Below, in pieces: positions 1-41,096 of a stretch of DNA of 41,096 nucleotides. Position 1 is the first letter of the stretch. Each line of letters starts with the position of its first letter. Under the pieces are notes generated by a model, which saw nothing but the letters and a program-made list of their open reading frames with translations, made no database searches and was not told where the DNA came from. The position numbers were made by a program, and so were the translations under genes. The DNA is from Pseudomonadota bacterium (GTDB lineage: Bacteria; Pseudomonadota; Gammaproteobacteria; CALCKW01), in the NCBI GenBank assembly GCA_039196715.1, contig JBCCUP010000041.1, forward strand, positions 1 to 41,096, written 5' to 3'.

Positions 1-545
1 CACGGCGAATGAGCCTGGCGTCAAGCACGAAGCCGCCGTCCAGTCCCATCGACCGGTGTGGCTACGCCACGACCAAGCTCCCACAAGAACCTGGGCCAGC
101 CGAGGGAGCCGTGTCCTGGCGCAGCCAGAAACGGCGAATGAGCCTGGCGTCAAACACGAAGCCGCCGTCCATTCCCATCGCTCGGTGTGGCTACGCCACG
201 ACCAAGCTCCCACACGATCCCGGGCCAGCCGTGGGAGCCGTGTCCTGGCGCAGCCAGACACGGCGAATGAACCCGGCGCTAACCACGAAGTCGCCGTTCA
301 TTCCAATCGCTCGGTTTGGCTGCGCCACGACCAAGCTCCCACAGGCTCCGAGGCCAACTGTGGGAGCCGTGTCCTGGCGCAGCCAGACACGGCGAATGGA
401 TCCGTCACGGAAAGCGAAGCGGGCGTCCCACTCAATCGCCCGGTGTGGCTACGCCACGACCAAGCTCCCACAAGGTCTGAGGCCAGCCGTAGGAGCGGTG
501 TCCTTGTCGGGCCGCGCAGGCAAAGCGAGACGCGGCGAATGGACG
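1..545. repeat. Tandem array of ~112-bp elements bounded by GTGGGAGC/GCTCCCAC
   Basis: The array has a 129-bp period. Full elements lie at about 102-213, 231-342 and 360-471, each 112 bp and separated by 17-bp spacers. A partial element ends at 84 (cut by the window edge) and a decayed one starts near 489. Each begins (G)TGGGAGCC and ends AAGCTCCCAC, so its ends are complementary. Each also contains two internal hairpins: GCCGTGT...ACACGGC with an inner CTGG/CCAG, and GTGGC-TAC-GCCAC. Because 129 is a multiple of three, reading frames stay open through it, but the array looks non-coding. It resembles a MITE or a composite REP array. Confidence 0.85.
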
Positions 546-7330: not shown

Positions 7331-8513
7331 CGTGGCCGGCCATGATGCGCGCGAAGATGTCCGGGTCGGTCACACCCTCCGAGCCGAACAGCAGCACGCG
7401 CGCGTTCGCGTCGAGCCCGAGCGCCTCGGACACCGCGGCGTCGCGCCGTGCGAGGATCAGGGCCGCGAGGCCGGCGACGGCACTCTCGCCTGCGTCGATG
7501 GCCGGATCCCCCGCGAGCGGGCGTGCCAGCAGGCGCACGGCGGGCGCGACGGTGTCGTCCGGGATGGTCAGGAAGTCGCTTGCCTCTTCGGCGAGGATGT
7601 CCCAGGCGAGCGGCGAGGGCTCCCCGCAGGAGAGGCCCGCCATGATGGTCTCCGTCTCGATCGCAACCGACGTCGCGGTGCCAGCCTTGGCACTCTCAAA
7701 CAAGCAGGCGGCGCGGTCGGGTTCGACGATGACCACACGCGGTGACGCCGCGCCGTAGAACTGGCGCAAGGCAGCGGCAATGCCGGCAGCCATGCCACCC
7801 ACCCCACCTTGCAAAAACACGTGGGTTGGCGGCTCTGCAAGGGCGTCGCAGGCTTCGCGTGTCATGACGCCGTAGCCCGACATCACGTCGAGCGGCGGTT
7901 GCGAGTAGCCCGGCCACGAGGTGTCGGAAACGACAAACCAGCCGTTCGCATCCGCTTCGGTCTTCGCCAGCCGGACCGACTCGTCGTAGTCGCCGTCGAT
8001 GCGGATGACGTTAGCGCCGTAGCGGCGCATGGCCTCGGCGCGGCCCTCACTGACTTCAGCGTGGATGTAGATGTTGCACGGCGCGCCGAAGCGCTGGCAG
8101 CCCCAGGCAAGCGAGCGGCCGTGGTTGCCGTCGGTGGCCGACACCAGCGTGATGTCGGCGCAGGCGGCGGCGTGTTCGCCGTTGCGGATGGACGCGAGGC
8201 TCACCGCCTCACCGGTGCGCGCGCTGATCTGCGCCTGCAACACGCGCTGTGCGGCATAGGCGCCACCGAGCGCCTTGAAGCTCGCGAGGCCGAAGCGCGG
8301 CCCCTCGTCCTTGTAGTCGATGCGCGCGACGCCGAGTTCGGCTGCCAGGGCGTCCAGCGACACCAGCGGGGTGGGGGCGTAGCCGGCCCACTGGGTGATT
8401 TCGGCACGCGCGGCGGCAAAGGCGTCTGCGCTGATCACGCGGTGGGCGGCGTCGCCGGTGCCGCGGTCGGCGCTGTGATGGCCGAGATCCGCGGTGGGAA
8501 AGTGAAGCGTCAT
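7320..8513 (-). CDS. Diaminopropionate ammonia-lyase-like PLP enzyme (fold type II)
   Basis: A 397-398-aa PLP-dependent lyase. The signature RFGLASFKALGGAYA (72-86) puts the Schiff-base lysine at Lys80 and is the hallmark of diaminopropionate ammonia-lyase, which converts 2,3-diaminopropionate to pyruvate and ammonia. TDGNHGRSLAWG and the glycine-rich phosphate loop LQGGVGGMAAG also fit. Related fold-II enzymes (EutB, threonine-dehydratase-like) occur in hydroxyectoine catabolism, so the true substrate may differ. The ATG at 8513 is chosen because AGGA lies 9 bases upstream; a second ATG at 8522 lies immediately against the AGGA. It follows the GntR gene by 23 bases and overlaps the M24 gene. 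Confidence 0.8.
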   Translation of the reverse strand: MTLHFPTADLGHHSADRGTGDAAHRVISADAFAAARAEITQWAGYAPTPLVSLDALAAELGVARIDYKDEGPRFGLASFKALGGAYAAQRVLQAQISARTGEAVSLASIRNGEHAAACADITLVSATDGNHGRSLAWGCQRFGAPCNIYIHAEVSEGRAEAMRRYGANVIRIDGDYDESVRLAKTEADANGWFVVSDTSWPGYSQPPLDVMSGYGVMTREACDALAEPPTHVFLQGGVGGMAAGIAAALRQFYGAASPRVVIVEPDRAACLFESAKAGTATSVAIETETIMAGLSCGEPSPLAWDILAEEASDFLTIPDDTVAPAVRLLARPLAGDPAIDAGESAVAGLAALILARRDAAVSEALGLDANARVLLFGSEGVTDPDIFARIMAGHDAL

Positions 8514-8536
8514 GGGGCGCATTCCTGAAACCGGAG

Positions 8537-9286
8537 TTATTGGTTGACCTTGGCGTGGGCGACAAACTCCGCCATTTCGCCGCGCCAGACCTGGCGGCCG
8601 AGGCAGAAGGGTGCGCCATCGCGATCGCGGGTAATCTGTTCGAGTTCTATGGCTGGGTGGTGCGGTGCGAGACCGAGCAGGGCAGCTTCGTCTTCGCGCA
8701 GCGCGCACAACCGGATCACGATGTCGCCGGTGTCGGCGTGGGTGCCGTAGTGTTGCTCCCAGAGCTGTGTCGTCGACTGCCGCAAGTCGTGGCTGAGCAG
8801 CTCTGGGAACCGGGCTGCGATCACCGATTCTGTCTCGATGAATGTCGCGTGACCGGCGCTGCGGAAGAGCCGCGTGTAGGTGTACAGGCTGTCGCCGCGG
8901 TCAATGCCGAGCTGCGCGGCGTTTGCGTCGGTTGCCGGGGTGGTGTCGACGTCGATCAGTTCGATCTCGAGGGCGACGCCCGCGTCGCGCGCATCCGTGG
9001 TAAACCCCAGTCGGTCGCTGATGTTGTAGCTCAGCCGGCCTGGCGACACAAAGCGCCCACGCCGCTCGGCGCTGTAGGCCAGCCCCTCGGCTTCGATGCG
9101 TTCCAGTGCCCGGCGCGCGGTCATGCGGCTGACGCCGTGCACCTCAGCCACGGTGCGCTCGGACGGCAGCGCGGTGTGCGGCGCCAGCGCGCCGCGCGTG
9201 ATGTCACCGCGCAAGGCGTCCACGATCTGTTGAACGCGCGGCGTTGCGGCAGCAGGCGGCACGTTGTGGGGCGACGGTGCAGGCAC
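8537..9286 (-). CDS. GntR/HutC-family transcriptional regulator with UTRA domain
   Basis: A 249-aa regulator. The winged helix is at about 15-85 (LPSERTVAEVHGVSRMTARRALERIEAEGL), and a UTRA ligand-binding domain fills about 95-245 (YTYTRLFRSAGHATFIETES, ALREDEAALLGLAPHHPAIELEQITRDRDGAPF). HutC-subfamily proteins usually repress catabolic operons until an intermediate binds. It is the first gene of the minus-strand operon regulator-lyase-M24. Two copies of a TGGTATATACCA palindrome lie just upstream, each over a promoter -10, which argues for autorepression and repression of the divergent PhyH-EutA-like pair. Confidence 0.92.
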   Translation of the reverse strand: MPAPSPHNVPPAAATPRVQQIVDALRGDITRGALAPHTALPSERTVAEVHGVSRMTARRALERIEAEGLAYSAERRGRFVSPGRLSYNISDRLGFTTDARDAGVALEIELIDVDTTPATDANAAQLGIDRGDSLYTYTRLFRSAGHATFIETESVIAARFPELLSHDLRQSTTQLWEQHYGTHADTGDIVIRLCALREDEAALLGLAPHHPAIELEQITRDRDGAPFCLGRQVWRGEMAEFVAHAKVNQ

Positions 9287-12377: not shown

Positions 12378-13346
12378 TCAGGCTGCGATCAGCGGTGGGG
12401 AACGGCTGCGCATTTTTCCGACGTTGCGGGCGGCAGTCTGGATGGCATTGTCCGTTCCTACCCACTGCTTGAATCGATCTTCGAACTCCGTTGCGATGGT
12501 GAGCCATGTGGATGCACCGATCTCGATGCGGCTGAGAATGTAGGGCAGGTTGTGATCAATCGCGCCGCGCGTCCCTCTCTTGACAACGCGCCCCGTCCAG
12601 TCCACCAGCTCGACATAGTGTTGCAGCGAACAGGGAATGGCGCTTGACTTGTTGTCGCGCGAATGGCCTTGAAAGCGCATCAAGTCCTTTGGAATCTGTC
12701 CCTGTCGTGCCGCAGTGATGCGTTTCCGAATGCTCGTGTGGTCGCTGTCCTCTGGCGTGGTCGCCAACTCCGCACGTATCGGGTTTAGATCGACGTAGGC
12801 CATGGCAGCCAGGATCGCTTTCTCATCCAACAACGCCTGGCTCTTGAAGCGTCCTTCCCAGAACGCGCCAGTACACCGATCTTCCGCATTGGCCTGACGG
12901 GAAATCGGTTCGTTGACACAACGCATGAACCACGAGATATCGGTCAGGCGGTGACGCCATTGATTTGCCAGCTCTCGGACACGCCCAAGCTCTGCTGGAC
13001 TCAACAGGTTTGGACAGTCAAGGAATTTGCGGCTTAGCAGGCTGCCATTGAACAGGCGGTGCCACCGGCCGACGACGTCGCTGTCGGTCCATGTTGCAGC
13101 AGCCGATGTGTCAACGTGCAAGACCACATGGTAGTGGTTTGACATAATCGCAAAGCTCGCTATGTCAATTGAAAACACGGAGGATACGGCGAGCAAGCGT
13201 TGCTCCACCCAGTCGCGACGGTGCTCGAAACTCACCCCTGTCGTGGTGTCCACGCCACACAGGTAGGCGCGCCTGACGCACCGCGACACGCAGTGGTACC
13301 ACGGTGTGTCGTGTAGTGAGATCAACTGGTGTCGTGGTGTCGGCAT
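12378..13346 (-). CDS. REP-associated tyrosine transposase (RAYT), Y1/HUH family, copy 1
   Basis: A 322-aa single-strand DNA transposase of the IS200/IS605 Y1 superfamily. The HUH metal site is in MSNHYHVVLHVD (about 68-79), and the catalytic tyrosine is the one in AMAYVDLNPIRAEL. The N-terminal TPWYHCVSRCVRRAYLCG is a RAYT signature. RAYTs are domesticated-type transposases that mobilise or maintain REP hairpins. The long C-terminal region (about 200-322) is beyond the catalytic domain and is shared with the second copy at 29074-30042. GACAGC...GCTGTC hairpins and AACAGTGCCTGTCT repeats lie just upstream of its start (13472-13541), the usual RAYT/REP arrangement. Confidence 0.9.
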   Translation of the reverse strand: MPTPRHQLISLHDTPWYHCVSRCVRRAYLCGVDTTTGVSFEHRRDWVEQRLLAVSSVFSIDIASFAIMSNHYHVVLHVDTSAAATWTDSDVVGRWHRLFNGSLLSRKFLDCPNLLSPAELGRVRELANQWRHRLTDISWFMRCVNEPISRQANAEDRCTGAFWEGRFKSQALLDEKAILAAMAYVDLNPIRAELATTPEDSDHTSIRKRITAARQGQIPKDLMRFQGHSRDNKSSAIPCSLQHYVELVDWTGRVVKRGTRGAIDHNLPYILSRIEIGASTWLTIATEFEDRFKQWVGTDNAIQTAARNVGKMRSRSPPLIAA

Positions 13347-29073: not shown

Positions 29074-30042
29074 TCAGGCGGCGATCAGCGGCGGCGATCG
29101 ACTGCGCGTTTTTCCCACGTTGCGCGTGGCTTGCCGGATCGCTTCTTCGGTGCCGACCCAGTTCCGAAATGCCCCTTCGAACTCGGTTGCAATGGTCAAC
29201 CAGGTATCCGCGTCAATGCCGAGGCGTGTGAGGATCGGCGGTAGCGATTCGTCAATGGCCCCGCGTTTCCCGTTGCGCACGACACGACCTGTGAGATCGA
29301 CAAGCTCGATGTAGTGCTCGAGCGCGAAGGGAATACCGTCGGGCTTGTCTCGGTTCGCGCTTCCCTGAAACCGCATCAGCTCGGCTGGAATGCTGCCGTC
29401 CTTCGCTTTTTCTATTCGCCGCTTGATGCTCGTGTGCTCACTTGTCTCGGGCGTATCAGCGAGCTTGGCGCGAACGGGGTTGAGATCAACATAAGCCATC
29501 GCTGATAGCACTGCGGCCTCGTCGAGCAGTGCCTGGCTCTTGAACCGGCCTTCCCAAAAAGCGCCAGTGCAGTGGTCCTCTGCGTTGGCGCGCCGTGCGA
29601 TAGGCTCGTTCACGCAGCGCATGAACCAGGAAATGTCCGTCAGGCGCTCGCGCCAGACCACAGCACAGGCGTGCACGTGGGTCACTTCGCCGCTGGTCAG
29701 GGTGTTTCGTGCGTGGAGATACCGCTGACTGAGCCGCGAGCCGGTGAACAGCCAATGCCACCGCTCTATTACCTCGTCTGTGCTCCAGGTAGCAGCGCGC
29801 TCGAGATCGACGCGCAAAACCAGGTGGTAGTGGTTGGACATGATGGCGTAGGCAGCGACATCGATGGCGAAGACACGGGCAACCGCCACAACACGCTTCT
29901 CAACCCACGGCCTGCGGTGCTCGTAGTCCTGACCGGAGTACGCATCCTCGCCGCACAGGAACGCCCTGCGAACGCAGCGAGACACCACGTGGTACCAAGG
30001 CGTGTCAGAAAGGGAAATCAGTTGTGCGCGTGGTGTAGGCAC
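29074..30042 (-). CDS. REP-associated tyrosine transposase (RAYT), Y1/HUH family, copy 2
   Basis: A 322-aa homologue of the transposase at 12378-13346, with the same length and closely similar sequence throughout. HUH site: MSNHYHLVLRVD. Catalytic Tyr: AMAYVDLNPVRAKL. N-terminal signature: TPWYHVVSRCVRRAFLCG. The GTG at 30042 aligns exactly with the ATG of copy 1 (MPTPR versus VPTPR), so the longer frame from 30105 is not used. It lies between the truncated RHS gene and an AT-rich nuclease fragment, flanked by the GACAGGCAC motif. It is intact and could be active. Confidence 0.88.
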   Translation of the reverse strand: MPTPRAQLISLSDTPWYHVVSRCVRRAFLCGEDAYSGQDYEHRRPWVEKRVVAVARVFAIDVAAYAIMSNHYHLVLRVDLERAATWSTDEVIERWHWLFTGSRLSQRYLHARNTLTSGEVTHVHACAVVWRERLTDISWFMRCVNEPIARRANAEDHCTGAFWEGRFKSQALLDEAAVLSAMAYVDLNPVRAKLADTPETSEHTSIKRRIEKAKDGSIPAELMRFQGSANRDKPDGIPFALEHYIELVDLTGRVVRNGKRGAIDESLPPILTRLGIDADTWLTIATEFEGAFRNWVGTEEAIRQATRNVGKTRSRSPPLIAA

Positions 30043-30173
30043 TGCTTCTGTCGTTAGAGGATGTGGACGTGTGTTTGTACAACACTGCCAGTGGTGACAT
30101 GTCACGATCGCTCAAGCGACACACGCACAACCGGCTTCCCGTGCCAGCATCGTTGCGTTTGTGTGCCAAGGGT

Positions 30174-35048: not shown

Positions 35049-35879
35049 GTGATTCTTCGCTTTCTCTTGGTTGTGTCGTACATCGCCTACTGCGCTCGGT
35101 TGCGTACGAACCCAAGTCGCTACTTTCAGCTCAACGCGACCCACTTCAACCCGCACAAGGGCTACTTTTCCAAGCTCGACATCGATCAGCTGATCCCGAG
35201 CAAATGGCGGCTGCGGCAGTGCCTCGACAACGGCGTCGACACCGATTTCAGCTACCCGGTGTTCGTGAAGCCCGAGTGGGGCCAGAACGGCCACGGCATC
35301 CAGCGCGCCGACGACGCCGCCATGCTGACCTCGATCCGCACCCACGCGATCGATCGGAAGATGCCGCACATCATTCAGGAAGCCGCGCCGGGTGCACGCG
35401 AGTTCGAGATTTTCTGGGTGCTGTCGGCACAAGACGAGCGTCGACCGGCCGTGTTTGGTGTCGCCGAAGCCACCAACCCCTGTGCCGAGCGCTATCCGAT
35501 CAACAGCGTCAAACACCCGAACACGGCCTACCACGACATCACGGCGTCGCTGGACGACGCACAACTCGACGCACTGTGGCAGCACATGCGCAGCCTCGGG
35601 CGGCTGGTCATCGCGCGTGCCGGGGTACGCGCGGACACGATCGAGCAGCTGATCAACGGTGATTTCCACGTCATCGAGGTCAACCTCTTCGTGCCCATGC
35701 CCCTGCACGTGCTCGACGCCGACACCCCTTGGGAACAGCGTGTGCGCGAGGTCTGTCGCACCACGCGTGCGCTGGCCCACATGACCCGCCGCATCCCGCG
35801 AAATCAGGCCACGCGATCAATCTTCTTTCGCAAGTGGCGCTTGTCCCGGCGCAACAAGATGCTGCCGTTGACACGCTAG
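35049..35879 (+). CDS. ATP-grasp ligase-like protein 1
   Basis: A 276-aa predicted ATP-dependent carboxylate-amine ligase. The ATP-grasp nucleotide lysine is in YPVFVKPEWGQNGHGIQR (Lys74). QEAAPGAREFEIFWVLS corresponds to the second ATP-binding strand, and FHVIEVNLFVPMP (Glu210, Asn212) gives the Mg ligands. The protein lacks a full N-terminal pre-grasp domain; instead it begins with a hydrophobic segment (VILRFLLVVSYIAYCA). Members of this superfamily form peptide-like amide bonds (D-Ala-D-Ala ligase, glutathione synthetase, RimK). The start codon is GTG. It is the first gene of a three-gene operon with a second ATP-grasp protein and a permease. Substrates are unknown. Confidence 0.75.
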   Translation: MILRFLLVVSYIAYCARLRTNPSRYFQLNATHFNPHKGYFSKLDIDQLIPSKWRLRQCLDNGVDTDFSYPVFVKPEWGQNGHGIQRADDAAMLTSIRTHAIDRKMPHIIQEAAPGAREFEIFWVLSAQDERRPAVFGVAEATNPCAERYPINSVKHPNTAYHDITASLDDAQLDALWQHMRSLGRLVIARAGVRADTIEQLINGDFHVIEVNLFVPMPLHVLDADTPWEQRVREVCRTTRALAHMTRRIPRNQATRSIFFRKWRLSRRNKMLPLTR

Positions 35880-35888
35880 GGGCCGGGT

Positions 35889-36800
35889 GTGATCGAGTGG
35901 TTCAAGAAGCACGTGTACGCCGCGATCAGCGAGCGTTACATGCACGGCTGCAGCAACTACAACGACCTCGAGGTGCGCCGCAGCTGCCGTTCCAAGGAAC
36001 AGGGCCGCACCCGCTTCGCCGAAGGCGGTGTGCCGCACGCGCGCGGGCTGGTGTTCTTCAACCCGTGGAAGGCCCACCGGTTCGCCAAGGAACACGGCTT
36101 TCCGTTGGTCATCAAACCGAATGTCAGCGGCTATTCCCGCGGCAGCTATTTCCCGATCACCAATTTCCGGGACCTCTGGAAAGCCATGGCACTGGCGCGG
36201 ATCTGGTGGCCGCGAACCGTGGTCGAGCAGTACCTCGAAGGGCCCAACTACCGTGTGGTGACGGTCAAGGGCAAGATCATGTCGGTGATCCAGCGCTACC
36301 CGCCGTTCGTCATCGGCAACGGGCGCGACACGGTCTCGGCGCTGATCGATGCGGAGAACGCGATACGCGAATCGATGGCGCTCTACGGGGGCATGTTCCC
36401 CATCAGCAAAGGCGAGCTGGTGGTCAAACACCTGAAAAAGCACGGCCACACACTCGACAGCGTGCCGGCCGACGGTGAGCGTGTCGAGTGTTTTCACCGG
36501 GTCGCGCTCGCCCCGGGCGGCGTCGTCCACGCCATCGAAAGCGAGACCGTGCACCCGGACAACCTCGAGCTGTTCCTGCACGTGCTCGAGCTGTTCAAGG
36601 CGAACATCCTCGGCATCGACGTGATATTCGAGCGCGGCATCGAGGAGAGTCACAAGACGCAGCGCTGCATCGTCCTGGAAGTGAACTCGCGGCCGTACCT
36701 CAAGATGCACGACTACCCGCGCTACGGGAAGAAGCACGACCTGTCAGGTTACTACGCCGAGCTGGATCAACTGGCTGTGAACCAACCGCACACCTTCTGA
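35889..36800 (+). CDS. ATP-grasp ligase-like protein 2 (cyanophycin-synthetase/GshAB-like)
   Basis: A 303-aa ATP-grasp protein. PLVIKPNVSGYSRGSYFPI (Lys76) gives the ATP lysine and loop. VVEQYLEGPNYRVVTVKGKI and the PPFVIGNGRDTVSALIDAEN segment closely resemble the ATP-grasp core of cyanophycin synthetase and bifunctional glutathione synthetase. LGIDVIFE (Asp244) and IVLEVNSRPYL (Glu264, Asn266) supply metal ligands. It starts with GTG nine bases after the previous stop, with an AGGGG site, and its stop overlaps the permease start (TGATG), so all three genes are tightly coupled. It shares the fold but little sequence with ligase 1, suggesting two successive ligation steps. Confidence 0.82.
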   Translation: MIEWFKKHVYAAISERYMHGCSNYNDLEVRRSCRSKEQGRTRFAEGGVPHARGLVFFNPWKAHRFAKEHGFPLVIKPNVSGYSRGSYFPITNFRDLWKAMALARIWWPRTVVEQYLEGPNYRVVTVKGKIMSVIQRYPPFVIGNGRDTVSALIDAENAIRESMALYGGMFPISKGELVVKHLKKHGHTLDSVPADGERVECFHRVALAPGGVVHAIESETVHPDNLELFLHVLELFKANILGIDVIFERGIEESHKTQRCIVLEVNSRPYLKMHDYPRYGKKHDLSGYYAELDQLAVNQPHTF

Positions 36801-37945
36801 TGCCCCGCAGCAGCGCGCTGCGCTTCTACCAGTTCTCCGCTGCCCACGCCCTGCTGATCGGACTGTTGCCGTTCTACCTGCCGGCACTGCTGTGGCAAGC
36901 CGGCCAATCGCTCGCCGACATCGCCGTGTTCATTGCCATCGGCGGGTTCAGCTACGCGGCCTGCCTGCTGGCGTGGGACGCACTTCGCGCGCGCCACGCC
37001 TTCCCCGTGCTGGTGGTGCCCTCCTTCGTCTTGTGGCTCGCCGTGGTGGCCGCCACCGTGTTCGACCCCGAGTTTGCCACCACACCCCTCACCGCGGCGC
37101 TGTACGGCGCCTACGGTTGCTTCTACTGGATGACGCAGCGCCTGTTGTTTGTCGAATGCACCGGCCCGGACAACACCGGCCGACGCTTCGGCAATGCGCA
37201 GATTCTGGTCACGGTGTTGCTGAAGGTCGGCATCCTCTGCGGCGGCTTTCTCTGGGACCGGGCCGGTGCGGGCAGCGTGCTGACTGTCGCGGTCGTGTTG
37301 GGCCTGGTCACCACCGTGGCGAGCCTGCGCCTGAGCTGGCCGACTCACACCCGCGTGCCGGCGAGCCGTCCGCGTGACCTGGTCGGTTTCAGCGACCGCC
37401 ACCGATCGCGCGCCGTGTTCCTCGTCGACGGCGTGTTTCTCTTCGCCGAGAGTTTCTTCTGGGTCATCACCCTGTACGCGCTCGCCGACCAGAACATCGC
37501 CAACCTCGGCGTCCTGGTGGTGGTGCTGTCCGCGGTCCTGTCGGTGGTGTTCTACCTGATCAAGAACCGGCTCGACACGGCGCCGCCGCACCGGATCTAC
37601 GTGCTGGCTGTGCTCGGCTACGCGGCGTCGTGGGGGCTGCGTGGCGCCGTGGATCTGGCAGGCGGAGCCACCTGGAGCTACGTTGTCATCGTGCTCATCG
37701 CGTTCCTCACGGCGCTGTTTCGGCTGGTGTTCAACAAGCGTTTCTTCGATTTGGCCCGACTCGAGCAGCCCCATGCCTACATCGTCGCCAAGAGCCAGTG
37801 GTCGCAATTGGCCCTGGGCGTTGGCTACCTTGCCTGTGCCCTGACAGTCTTCGGTGGCCTGTCGCCAACGTGGGCTTTGCCGCTGTTCTACGCACTGCTG
37901 GTGCCCCTGACCGGGGTGTACTTGCGCTACCGCGCCGCGCTGTAG
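36800..37945 (+). CDS. MFS-like permease of the ATP-grasp operon
   Basis: A 381-aa integral membrane protein with about ten to twelve helices (for example HALLIGLLPFYLPALLWQAG at about 14-33, LADIAVFIAIGGFSYAACLL, VLVVPSFVLWLAVVAATVF, ILVTVLLKVGILCGGFLW, VVIVLIAFLTALFRLVFNKR). The layout fits the major facilitator superfamily, although canonical motif A is weak. ATG overlaps the previous stop as TGATG. Its place after two ligases suggests export of the ligated product, or import of a precursor (inference). The charged RHRSRAVFLVDGVF loop separates the two halves. Confidence 0.75.
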   Translation: MPRSSALRFYQFSAAHALLIGLLPFYLPALLWQAGQSLADIAVFIAIGGFSYAACLLAWDALRARHAFPVLVVPSFVLWLAVVAATVFDPEFATTPLTAALYGAYGCFYWMTQRLLFVECTGPDNTGRRFGNAQILVTVLLKVGILCGGFLWDRAGAGSVLTVAVVLGLVTTVASLRLSWPTHTRVPASRPRDLVGFSDRHRSRAVFLVDGVFLFAESFFWVITLYALADQNIANLGVLVVVLSAVLSVVFYLIKNRLDTAPPHRIYVLAVLGYAASWGLRGAVDLAGGATWSYVVIVLIAFLTALFRLVFNKRFFDLARLEQPHAYIVAKSQWSQLALGVGYLACALTVFGGLSPTWALPLFYALLVPLTGVYLRYRAAL

Positions 37946-37972: not shown

Positions 37973-38098
37973 GAGCCGATTTAGGCTCTTTAGTATCTAT
38001 TTATTCAAATTTGGAGTCATTTTTGGCATTTTACTTGATTTATATTATTGAGCCATAATAGACACATAAAATGTGAAAAAAGCACTCTTGAGCCACAT
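37973..38098 (+). promoter_or_regulatory. AT-rich hipBA promoter region with GAGCC operator motifs
   Basis: This AT-rich stretch contrasts with its GC-rich flanks. It contains GAGCC-GATTTA-GGCTC (37973-37988), an inverted repeat, and two further direct copies of TTGAGCCA(T/C)A at about 38048-38057 and 38088-38097. HipB-type repressors bind multiple inverted sites upstream of hipBA, so these are candidate operators. The first inverted repeat, followed by TTTAG, may also help terminate the upstream operon. Confidence 0.6.
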
Positions 38099-38455
38099 AT
38101 GTCTCACAGCATTGATATCCAGTCTGCTCCCATCGACCGTGTGGTCAGCGCGCTGACCCAGCGCCTCGACACCGAACGGCTGACCCAGAACGTGAGCCAG
38201 GCGAGCCTCGCGCAAACAGCCGGGGTCTCGCGCCGCACGGTGATCCGCATGGCCGCTGGCGAGGGCGTGTCACTCGAATCCTACGTGCGCGTCGCACTGG
38301 CCCTCGGCCTCACAGACGCGCTGTCAACGTTGTTGACGCCGCCCGAGCTGAGGCCACTTGAGCAACTCACCCGCAAACCCGCCCGCCAGCGCGCCAGCCG
38401 CGGCAGTACCGATGACACCGTCGCCTGGCACTGGGGCGACGAGAACGCGCCGTGA
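38099..38455 (+). CDS. hipB: HipB-like XRE-family antitoxin
   Basis: A 118-aa DNA-binding antitoxin. A Cro/C1 helix-turn-helix occupies about 30-75 (NVSQASLAQTAGVSRRTVIRMAAGEGVSLESYVRVALALGL). The C-terminal tail (QLTRKPARQRASRGSTDDTVAWHWGDENAP) is basic and would contact HipA. The ATG at 38099 is chosen; the longer frame from TTG at 38048 would run through the operator motifs. The stop overlaps the hipA GTG start (GTGA), typical of toxin-antitoxin coupling. HipB neutralises HipA and represses the operon. Confidence 0.88.
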   Translation: MSHSIDIQSAPIDRVVSALTQRLDTERLTQNVSQASLAQTAGVSRRTVIRMAAGEGVSLESYVRVALALGLTDALSTLLTPPELRPLEQLTRKPARQRASRGSTDDTVAWHWGDENAP

Positions 38456-39753
38456 GCACGTCGGCCTGGGTCGAGCTGTGGGGCCGCCGCATCGCGGGCG
38501 TGAGCTGGGACGCGGAGCGCGAGCACGGCGTGTTTCAGTACACCCCTGCGTTCGCGGCGTCGGCGATCGAGGTCGCACCGCTCACCATGCCGCTGCGCAC
38601 CGCACCTTACCGTTTCACCGCCCTGCCGCGCGAGAGCTTCCACGGTCTGCCGGGCCTGCTTGCCGATTGCTTGCCGGACCGCTTTGGCAACACCCTGATC
38701 AACGCATGGCTCGCCGAGCAGGGCCGCACGCCGGCGAGTTTCAACCCCGTCGAGCGTCTGTGCTACATCGGCTCTCGGGCAATGGGTGCACTGGAATTCA
38801 AACCGTCCATCGGGCTCGACGGGCGGGCCGGGCGCCGCATCGCGCTTGACGGGCTGGTCACACTGGCGAACCGCGTGTTGGACGAGCGCCTCGGGCTGAC
38901 CGGCGCGCTCGGCGGCCACGACGACCGAACCGACATCGAAAACATCCTGCGCGTCGGCACCAGCGCCGGTGGGGCGCGCGCCAAGGCCGTGTTGGCCTGG
39001 CACCCCGACACCGGCGCGTTCCGCTCCGGCCAGGTCGCCGCGGACAGCGGCTACCAACACTGGCTGGTCAAATTTGACGGGGTCCACGGCAACCGCGACA
39101 AGGAACTGGCCGACCCACAGGGATTCGGCCGAATCGAATACGCCTACGCGCGCATGGCCGCCGACGCGGGCATCGACATGAGCCCATCACGGCTGTTCGA
39201 GGAAGGGGGACGGGCGCACTTCATGACCCGGCGATTCGACCGGCGAGATGACGGTGCCAAGTGGCACATGCAGTCGCTGGCGGCGATGCGCCACTTCGAC
39301 TTCAACGCCGCCGGCAGCAACAGTTACGAGGAAGCGATCCAGACACTTCGGCAGCTTGGCCTGCCCGCATTGGATGTCGAGCAACAGGTGAGGCGTGCGG
39401 TGTTCAACGTGTTGGCGCGCAACCAGGACGACCACGTCAAGAACATTGCCTTCCTGATGGACAGCCGTGGCGATTGGCGGCTCAGCCCCGCTTTCGACGT
39501 CACCTACGCCTACAACCCGGACGGTGCCTGGACCAGCCAGCACCAGATGAGCCTGAACGGCAAGCGACGCGGCTTCACGCGCGACGACCTGGTCCGCTTC
39601 GCTGCGTACGCCAACCTGAAGAAACGCAAGGCCGACGCCCTCATCGAAGACGCACTCTCCGCCCTCGGCGCCTGGCCCGGACACGCGCGCGACGCCGGCG
39701 TCGACCCGGCGGACGCGGCGCGCATCGCCCGCAGCTTTCGCTGGCTCTCCTGA
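38452..39753 (+). CDS. hipA: HipA-family serine/threonine kinase toxin
   Basis: A 433-aa HipA kinase. The N-terminal subdomain 1-110 precedes the autophosphorylated P-loop, VGTSAGGARAKAVLAW, with Ser171 as likely phosphoacceptor. The ATP lysine is in HWLVKFDG (Lys207). The catalytic loop ARNQDDHVKNIAFL has Asp326 and Asn331, and LSPAFDVTY (Asp349) is the DFG equivalent. HipA phosphorylates glutamyl-tRNA synthetase in E. coli and causes dormancy; targets vary between homologues. All key residues are present, so the toxin looks active. The protein is of normal length and overlaps hipB by four bases. Confidence 0.93.
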   Translation: MSTSAWVELWGRRIAGVSWDAEREHGVFQYTPAFAASAIEVAPLTMPLRTAPYRFTALPRESFHGLPGLLADCLPDRFGNTLINAWLAEQGRTPASFNPVERLCYIGSRAMGALEFKPSIGLDGRAGRRIALDGLVTLANRVLDERLGLTGALGGHDDRTDIENILRVGTSAGGARAKAVLAWHPDTGAFRSGQVAADSGYQHWLVKFDGVHGNRDKELADPQGFGRIEYAYARMAADAGIDMSPSRLFEEGGRAHFMTRRFDRRDDGAKWHMQSLAAMRHFDFNAAGSNSYEEAIQTLRQLGLPALDVEQQVRRAVFNVLARNQDDHVKNIAFLMDSRGDWRLSPAFDVTYAYNPDGAWTSQHQMSLNGKRRGFTRDDLVRFAAYANLKKRKADALIEDALSALGAWPGHARDAGVDPADAARIARSFRWLS

Positions 39754-40754: not shown

Positions 40755-41096
40755 GGCACGACCGCACGCCGCGAGAACCGCATCCTTGCGCAGCAATGCG
40801 TGCCCTCTTCGTGGGAGCCGCATCCTTGCACAGCACGATGCGGCGATGCGATAGCGAACAGGGCGTTGCGATCGGTGCAACTCCTATTCGCCCCAGGCAC
40901 GCTTCGCGTACGCTGGCGCTCCCACAGGATCGCGTCACGCTACGGGCGCTGCATCCTTGCGCAGCAACACGCGCCCTCGCTGTGGGAGCCGCATCCTTGC
41001 GCAGCACGATGCGGCGATGCGATAGCGAACAGGGCGTTGCGATCAGTGCAACTCCTATTCGCCCCAGGCACGCTTCGCGTACGCTGGCGCTCCCAC
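40755..41096. repeat. Tandem 115-bp elements bounded by GTGGGAGC/GCGCTCCCAC
   Basis: Two near-identical elements, 40811-40925 and 40982-41096 (113 of 115 bases equal), each start GTGGGAGCCGCATCC and end GCGCTCCCAC. Each has an internal hairpin GCCGCATC...GATGCGGC. The period is 171 bp; the 56-bp spacer and the preceding 40777-40810 carry half-units GCATCCTTGCGCAGCA. The array continues past the window edge. Its architecture parallels the 1-545 array although the internal sequence differs. Confidence 0.85.

Follow-up and report, generated by a model that had tools for sequence, protein, structure and literature searches.

Operon layout in the window

The window, the entire 41,096-nucleotide stretch of DNA that was analysed, carries on its forward strand a compact operon (35049–37945) of two dissimilar ATP-grasp ligases, LigA and LigB, followed by an MFS-type permease. 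The layout is as an earlier note on this DNA had described it: LigA and LigB are separated by 9 bases, and LigB and the permease gene overlap by one base in the motif TGATG.

35049–35879, + strand: LigA, ATP-grasp ligase; open frame, GTG start, 276 aa
35889–36800, + strand: LigB, ATP-grasp ligase; open frame, GTG start, 303 aa
36800–37945, + strand: MFS-type permease; open frame, ATG start, 381 aa
37973–37988, + strand: possible terminator hairpin then TTTAGTATCT, just 3′ of the permease gene; from a pattern scan only, in which the region showed no excess of such hairpin sites over shuffled sequence

The trio are real genes rather than chance frames in GC-rich DNA, since homologues in the same order and on the same strand occur in dozens of genomes; for the two ligases, the invariance of their ATP-grasp catalytic residues leads to the same conclusion. 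A DAO/GCV_T-type oxidase gene precedes LigA, and genes that by reading are an Xre-like regulator and a HipA-like gene lie directly 3′ of the operon (38048–39753). The window's open reading frames thus agree with the earlier statement that no carrier, racemase or NRPS gene lies near the trio. The Xre-like and HipA-like genes, which overlap by 4 bases and have an AT-rich leader, look like a HipBA-type toxin–antitoxin pair.

Conservation and distribution of the trio

A LigA scan of genome contigs returned 53 loci, nearly all from marine gammaproteobacteria and one from Desulforhopalus. Later additions brought the set to 67 loci, a few of which are same-species repeats or near-identical contigs. 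LigB is present in 65 of the 67 and the permease in 63, with constant order and strand, and the pairwise identities of LigA, LigB and permease between loci correlate at 0.86–0.92. The three genes are therefore one conserved unit. A lack of co-conservation in other genomes had been named beforehand as a finding that would refute the earlier note; with 63 of 67 LigA loci complete, the opposite was observed. Exceptions to the full trio include L149 (decayed), L052 (broken), L042 (at a contig end) and L072, which has a VTT-domain membrane protein instead of the permease. In the decaying operon of L149 (6447–8198), an intact decarboxylase gene is followed by a LigA remnant; in L052 (near 8001–8672), the broken LigA adjoins a TANGO2 gene. 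An in-frame TGA in the LigA of another genome (G245) was considered and rejected as anything other than a real stop codon.

Hosts of the trio include Colwellia, Psychromonas, Neptunomonas, Amphritea, symbionts of Osedax and of sponges, a closed 1.5 Mb genome and sulfate reducers. LigA forms an isolated family: it was found in 10 of 369 sampled gammaproteobacterial genomes, in every case at 2e-95 or better, and the other genomes gave no match past 1e-8. Even within the window's genus its distribution is patchy, with copies in two of four genomes, the window's own and G003. Identity between those two copies is just 44%, whereas the copies at L004 and L022 share 54% with the window LigA. This combination of patchiness and a more divergent same-genus copy suggests horizontal transfer.

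The unit is often larger than three genes. Same-strand neighbours across the 67 loci include DoxX-like (43 loci), YHS-domain (34), DinB (22) and TANGO2/NRDE (14) genes; the DoxX assignment was made by reading, with one member giving a weak Pfam match to DoxX_2. Four hydrophobic segments are present in the DoxX-like protein, and a single N-terminal one in the YHS protein. None of the DoxX-like, YHS, DinB and TANGO2 genes is in place at the window operon, and a solitary DoxX-like homologue (51% identity) lies elsewhere in the window's genome. These companions were dropped as a clue to the pathway, being frequent but without a tested function that fixes it. At five loci from Osedax symbionts and related genomes (L023, L029, L031, L036 and L054), the DoxX-like gene is separated from LigA by a gene for a pyridine-nucleotide-disulfide oxidoreductase-like protein of 721 to 750 aa.

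The YHS neighbour matches the NCBIfam model YHS_seleno_dom. Four proteins above the cut-off of this model are encoded in the window's genome (L154, L155 and contigs C128 and C129 of G000), none of them adjoining LigA. A selenium link was rejected, because these proteins are not beside LigA and the copies inspected carry Cys. A betaine or sarcosine context, raised by the oxidase in the window and by a GMC-type dehydrogenase near L004 and L022, was likewise rejected because other loci lack it.

LigA and the permease

LigA was described in the earlier note as a compact ATP-grasp protein with a hydrophobic N-terminus, and this holds in the AlphaFold2 model (pLDDT 89.8), which has a helix at residues 2–17, matching the single hydrophobic stretch at 1–19. 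The model adopts a fold of the D-Ala-D-Ala ligase (Ddl) type, with a TM-score of about 0.5 to Ddl, and residues Lys74, Glu118, Glu120, Glu210 and Asn212 are invariant in 46 of 46 aligned sequences. LigA thus shares the ATP-grasp core of Ddl at a distance. Unlike Ddl, it has no pre-ATP-grasp domain, the 276-aa model starting with one helix, and identity to Ddl is about 15–20%. The window protein falls below the Pfam cut-off for PF07478 (21.4 against 24) and scores at most 20 bits against Ddl models with cut-offs of at least 245. A LigA profile matches the L-amino acid ligase BL00235 (3vot) weakly (E=0.0047).

The permease has 10–11 hydrophobic segments by hydropathy. Its earlier description as MFS-like is weak for the window protein taken alone (MFS_1, 17.2 bits; cut-off 33.4) and stands for the family, in which 25 of 32 members match MFS_1 (best E=1.1e-16).

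LigB and its predicted pocket

The claim that ligase 2 has a core of the cyanophycin synthetase (CphA)/GshAB type is borne out by sequence and by fold. LigB matches cyanophycin synthetase model TIGR02068 at E=1.4e-41 (142.4 bits; cut-off 850) over profile positions 212–463 of 862. Scores are lower against GshAB (PRK02471, 84 bits, cut-off 425; TIGR01435, 39.3, cut-off 656) and N-acetylglutaminylglutamine synthetase (TIGR03103, 82.3 bits, cut-off 569). The first matches of the AlphaFold2 model (pLDDT 90.1) are CphA2 (7ta5) and CphA1 (7wac), with TM-scores of 0.75–0.79 and about 27% identity. Membership of the pair in a known family with a defined product had been named as a finding that would overturn the earlier note. 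No such family came up among the profile models and the open-access literature searched, and both ligases score below the cut-offs of the named families.

The LigB pocket was mapped by alignment on the TeCphA1 complex (PMC9427784), with residues numbered by hand count. Catalytic residues are invariant among 45 aligned relatives: Lys36, Lys76, Arg122, Glu264 and Asn266 of LigB correspond to Lys220, Lys261, Arg309, Glu450 and Asn452 of CphA1. Arg323 of CphA1 is also kept, as Arg136. Elsewhere the pocket differs, with the aspartate-binding CphA1 residues Asn394, Ser396 and Arg458 and the catalytic His267 replaced by Ala/Ser206, Ala208, Lys272 and Tyr/Phe82, and LigB has two additional invariant arginines at positions 204 and 268. 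In CphA1, Arg458 binds the α-carboxylate of the incoming aspartate, and the equivalent residue is Met or Tyr in glycine-using GshF (PMC9427784). Arg122, Arg136, Lys272 and the invariant arginines 204 and 268 suggest a site suited to a negatively charged amine such as hypotaurine or taurine. Judged from the aligned residues, the same pocket would also suit an acidic amino acid.

LigB therefore resembles the G domain of CphA1 and CphA2 in its top matches and retained residues. It differs from CphA in having neither the N domain nor the Mur-like M domain, in the four replaced residues and in being partnered by a second ATP-grasp enzyme. With GshAB (GshF) and N-acetylglutaminylglutamine synthetase it shares an ATP-grasp subgroup and, with GshF, a Tyr or Phe at the position of CphA His267. 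Unlike these enzymes, LigB stands alone, without a glutamate–cysteine ligase or acetyltransferase part, and it has Lys at the acceptor-carboxylate position, where GshF has Met or Tyr.

Putative hypotaurine-route genes beside the ligases

In relatives of the window operon, the ligases adjoin genes of the enzyme families that convert cysteine to hypotaurine. Each of the five family-bearing Desulfobulbia (L053 and L146–L149) has, directly upstream, a decarboxylase of the cysteine sulfinate decarboxylase (CSAD)/glutamate decarboxylase (GAD) family, as do two gammaproteobacteria (L072 and L079). At three of these loci (L053, L072 and L147), a cysteine dioxygenase gene is placed between the decarboxylase and LigA. 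The order in the Desulforhopalus locus L053 and in L147 is decarboxylase, dioxygenase, LigA, LigB, permease; L079, L146 and L148 have the same order without the dioxygenase. The closed 1.5 Mb genome of L072 reads DoxX-like, PLP decarboxylase, cysteine dioxygenase, LigA, LigB. Four decarboxylase–dioxygenase pairs distant from the ligases occur elsewhere in LigA-positive genomes (L123, of the window's own genus, L124, L125 and L135).

Within the sample of 369 gammaproteobacterial genomes, the decarboxylase occurs in five of 10 LigA-positive and one of 359 LigA-negative genomes (Fisher 2.7e-8), a figure to be read with the points that the decarboxylase used as query is from a doubly positive genome and that the sampled genomes are not independent, although the five positives span five families. 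In the sole LigA-negative genome with the decarboxylase, the contig breaks off within that gene, at the flank expected to hold LigA. The dioxygenase was found by profile in four of 10 LigA-positive and none of 359 LigA-negative genomes; as the rows of that profile all come from LigA-positive genomes, its absence elsewhere is the informative part. Weaker decarboxylase matches in Oceanospirillales, which are not beside a dioxygenase, were excluded as support.

The solved structures nearest to the decarboxylase are those of CSAD (2jis and 6zek), with GAD and GADL1 scoring close. The dioxygenase is nearest cysteine dioxygenase I (PF05995, E=3.5e-9). Its residues His83, His85, Tyr56 and Arg58, which we take to be rat CDO His86, His88, Tyr58 and Arg60, are invariant in six copies, so that the cupin His-X-His motif and the substrate Arg of CDO are present. 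The window's genome gave no decarboxylase match (to 1e-40) and no dioxygenase match, and most Colwellia and Neptunomonas-type genomes are without the dioxygenase. In having both enzyme families next to the ligases, the relatives resemble the known cysteine dioxygenase–cysteine sulfinate decarboxylase route. They differ from it in that gene order links the route to the two ligases and the permease, and in its absence from the window's genome.

Proposed pathway and alternatives

The adjacency of the trio to cysteine-to-hypotaurine genes in relatives suggests that it probably makes and moves a small hypotaurine or taurine amide. The specific proposal, to which we give an even chance, is that LigA and LigB build such an amide from an amine that is either synthesised or imported, and that the permease moves it. 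Each ligase would bind ATP, form an acyl-phosphate from a carboxylate and couple it to an amine; we infer one amide bond per ligase. LigB would take an anionic amine in its cationic pocket, as the CphA G domain does, most likely hypotaurine or taurine. Where the genes are present, the amine would derive from cysteine through cysteine dioxygenase and the cysteine-sulfinate-type decarboxylase; because the window's genome lacks both genes, uptake of the amine from the surroundings must be assumed there. The acid partner could be an amino acid, for example, or a dipeptide prepared by LigA, and the MFS-type protein would move the product, most likely outward. What the data show are the genes, their folds and catalytic residues, their joint conservation and their linkage to decarboxylase and dioxygenase genes; which substrates are used, which ligation comes first and whether transport runs outward rather than inward are inferred. 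A minimal pathway for an amide-bonded product, as suggested in the earlier note, is consistent with all the tests; from the window alone, neither the often larger unit nor the link to hypotaurine genes in relatives could be seen.

Several observations count against a hypotaurine product. The amine would have to be imported by the window's organism, and likewise wherever the dioxygenase is missing, as in most Colwellia and Neptunomonas-type genomes. An O2-using dioxygenase is odd in Desulfobulbia, which are mostly anaerobes, and the decarboxylase family also contains aspartate and glutamate decarboxylases. One member, GADL1, prefers aspartate (PMC5947694). The decarboxylase could accordingly be an aspartate decarboxylase, with the ligases making a β-alanyl peptide in a bacterial analogue of the GADL1–carnosine synthase route. 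The membership of GADL1, the nearly equal scores of GADs and CSAD against the decarboxylase profile, and the three operons with a decarboxylase and no dioxygenase all fit a β-alanyl product. It is nonetheless distinctly unlikely: β-alanine needs no dioxygenase, yet cysteine dioxygenase accompanies the decarboxylase in three operons and again in the four pairs away from the ligases. Alternatively, the hypotaurine genes may be mere frequent companions of enzymes that make a peptide resembling glutathione or cyanophycin, built from ordinary amino acids and serving as a thiol, store or osmolyte. LigB is, after all, nearest CphA, GshAB and N-acetylglutaminylglutamine synthetase, its P-loop residue is Tyr or Phe as in GshF, and many loci lie in genomes without a hypotaurine gene. 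Such a peptide would leave unexplained both the operon linkage in two bacterial classes and the skew of the decarboxylase towards LigA-positive genomes, and we regard it as unlikely.

A membrane anchor is conceivable for the N-terminal hydrophobic helix of LigA, and the DoxX-like and YHS neighbours also bear hydrophobic segments, features that would suit ligases modifying a ribosomal peptide or membrane-bound partner, in the manner of graspetides, rather than free small molecules. Conserved operons are packed so tightly, however, that little space is left for a conserved precursor gene, and the neighbourhood list, which covers frames of at least 70 aa, holds no conserved extra family beside the ligases. 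LigB also matches the fold of the graspetide ligase PsnB much less closely (TM about 0.5) than that of CphA. On the grounds of precursor space and fold, a graspetide-like role was rejected as highly improbable.

Returning to the hypotaurine or taurine amide, a fuller form of the proposal is a previously undescribed pathway in which the two unlike ligases would attach hypotaurine made from cysteine, or imported taurine, as a cap to an amino acid or short peptide before export. The products would be peptide metabolites of a new class, carrying a sulfinate or sulfonate group. Its hosts would be marine gammaproteobacteria, thiotroph-like small genomes and sulfate reducers. This form is put forward tentatively, at somewhat less than an even chance.

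Relation to known systems

Bacilysin-type dipeptide operons combine the ATP-grasp ligase BacD, of a type that makes L,L-dipeptides, with the MFS exporter BacE. The trio is like them in placing an ATP-grasp amide ligase and an MFS permease in a single operon, and unlike them in its two dissimilar ligases and in its hypotaurine, YHS, DoxX-like, DinB and TANGO2 companions. A single ATP-grasp dipeptide ligase with an MFS exporter is known. No described cluster with the present gene set was found in the open-access literature searched, where this pair of ligases and its hypotaurine link are undescribed.

Marine animals and sulfidic habitats are rich in taurine compounds. If correct, the proposal would account for a gene set retained across cultured genera, animal symbionts and sulfate reducers, and would name a readily testable substrate class. 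It would also bring a dedicated hypotaurine or taurine amide, as a new metabolite, into marine sulfur cycling or host–microbe exchange.

Repeats at the contig ends

At the left contig end (window positions 1–504) lie tandem copies of about 129 nt with palindromic arms, and at the right end (40765–41096) a direct repeat with 171-nt spacing, 91% identical; these repeats are probably where the assembly broke. Two related open reading frames (12378–13346 and 29074–30105) resemble, by reading, REP-associated transposases of the Y1 type, whose REP elements may be the palindromic repeats of the left contig end.
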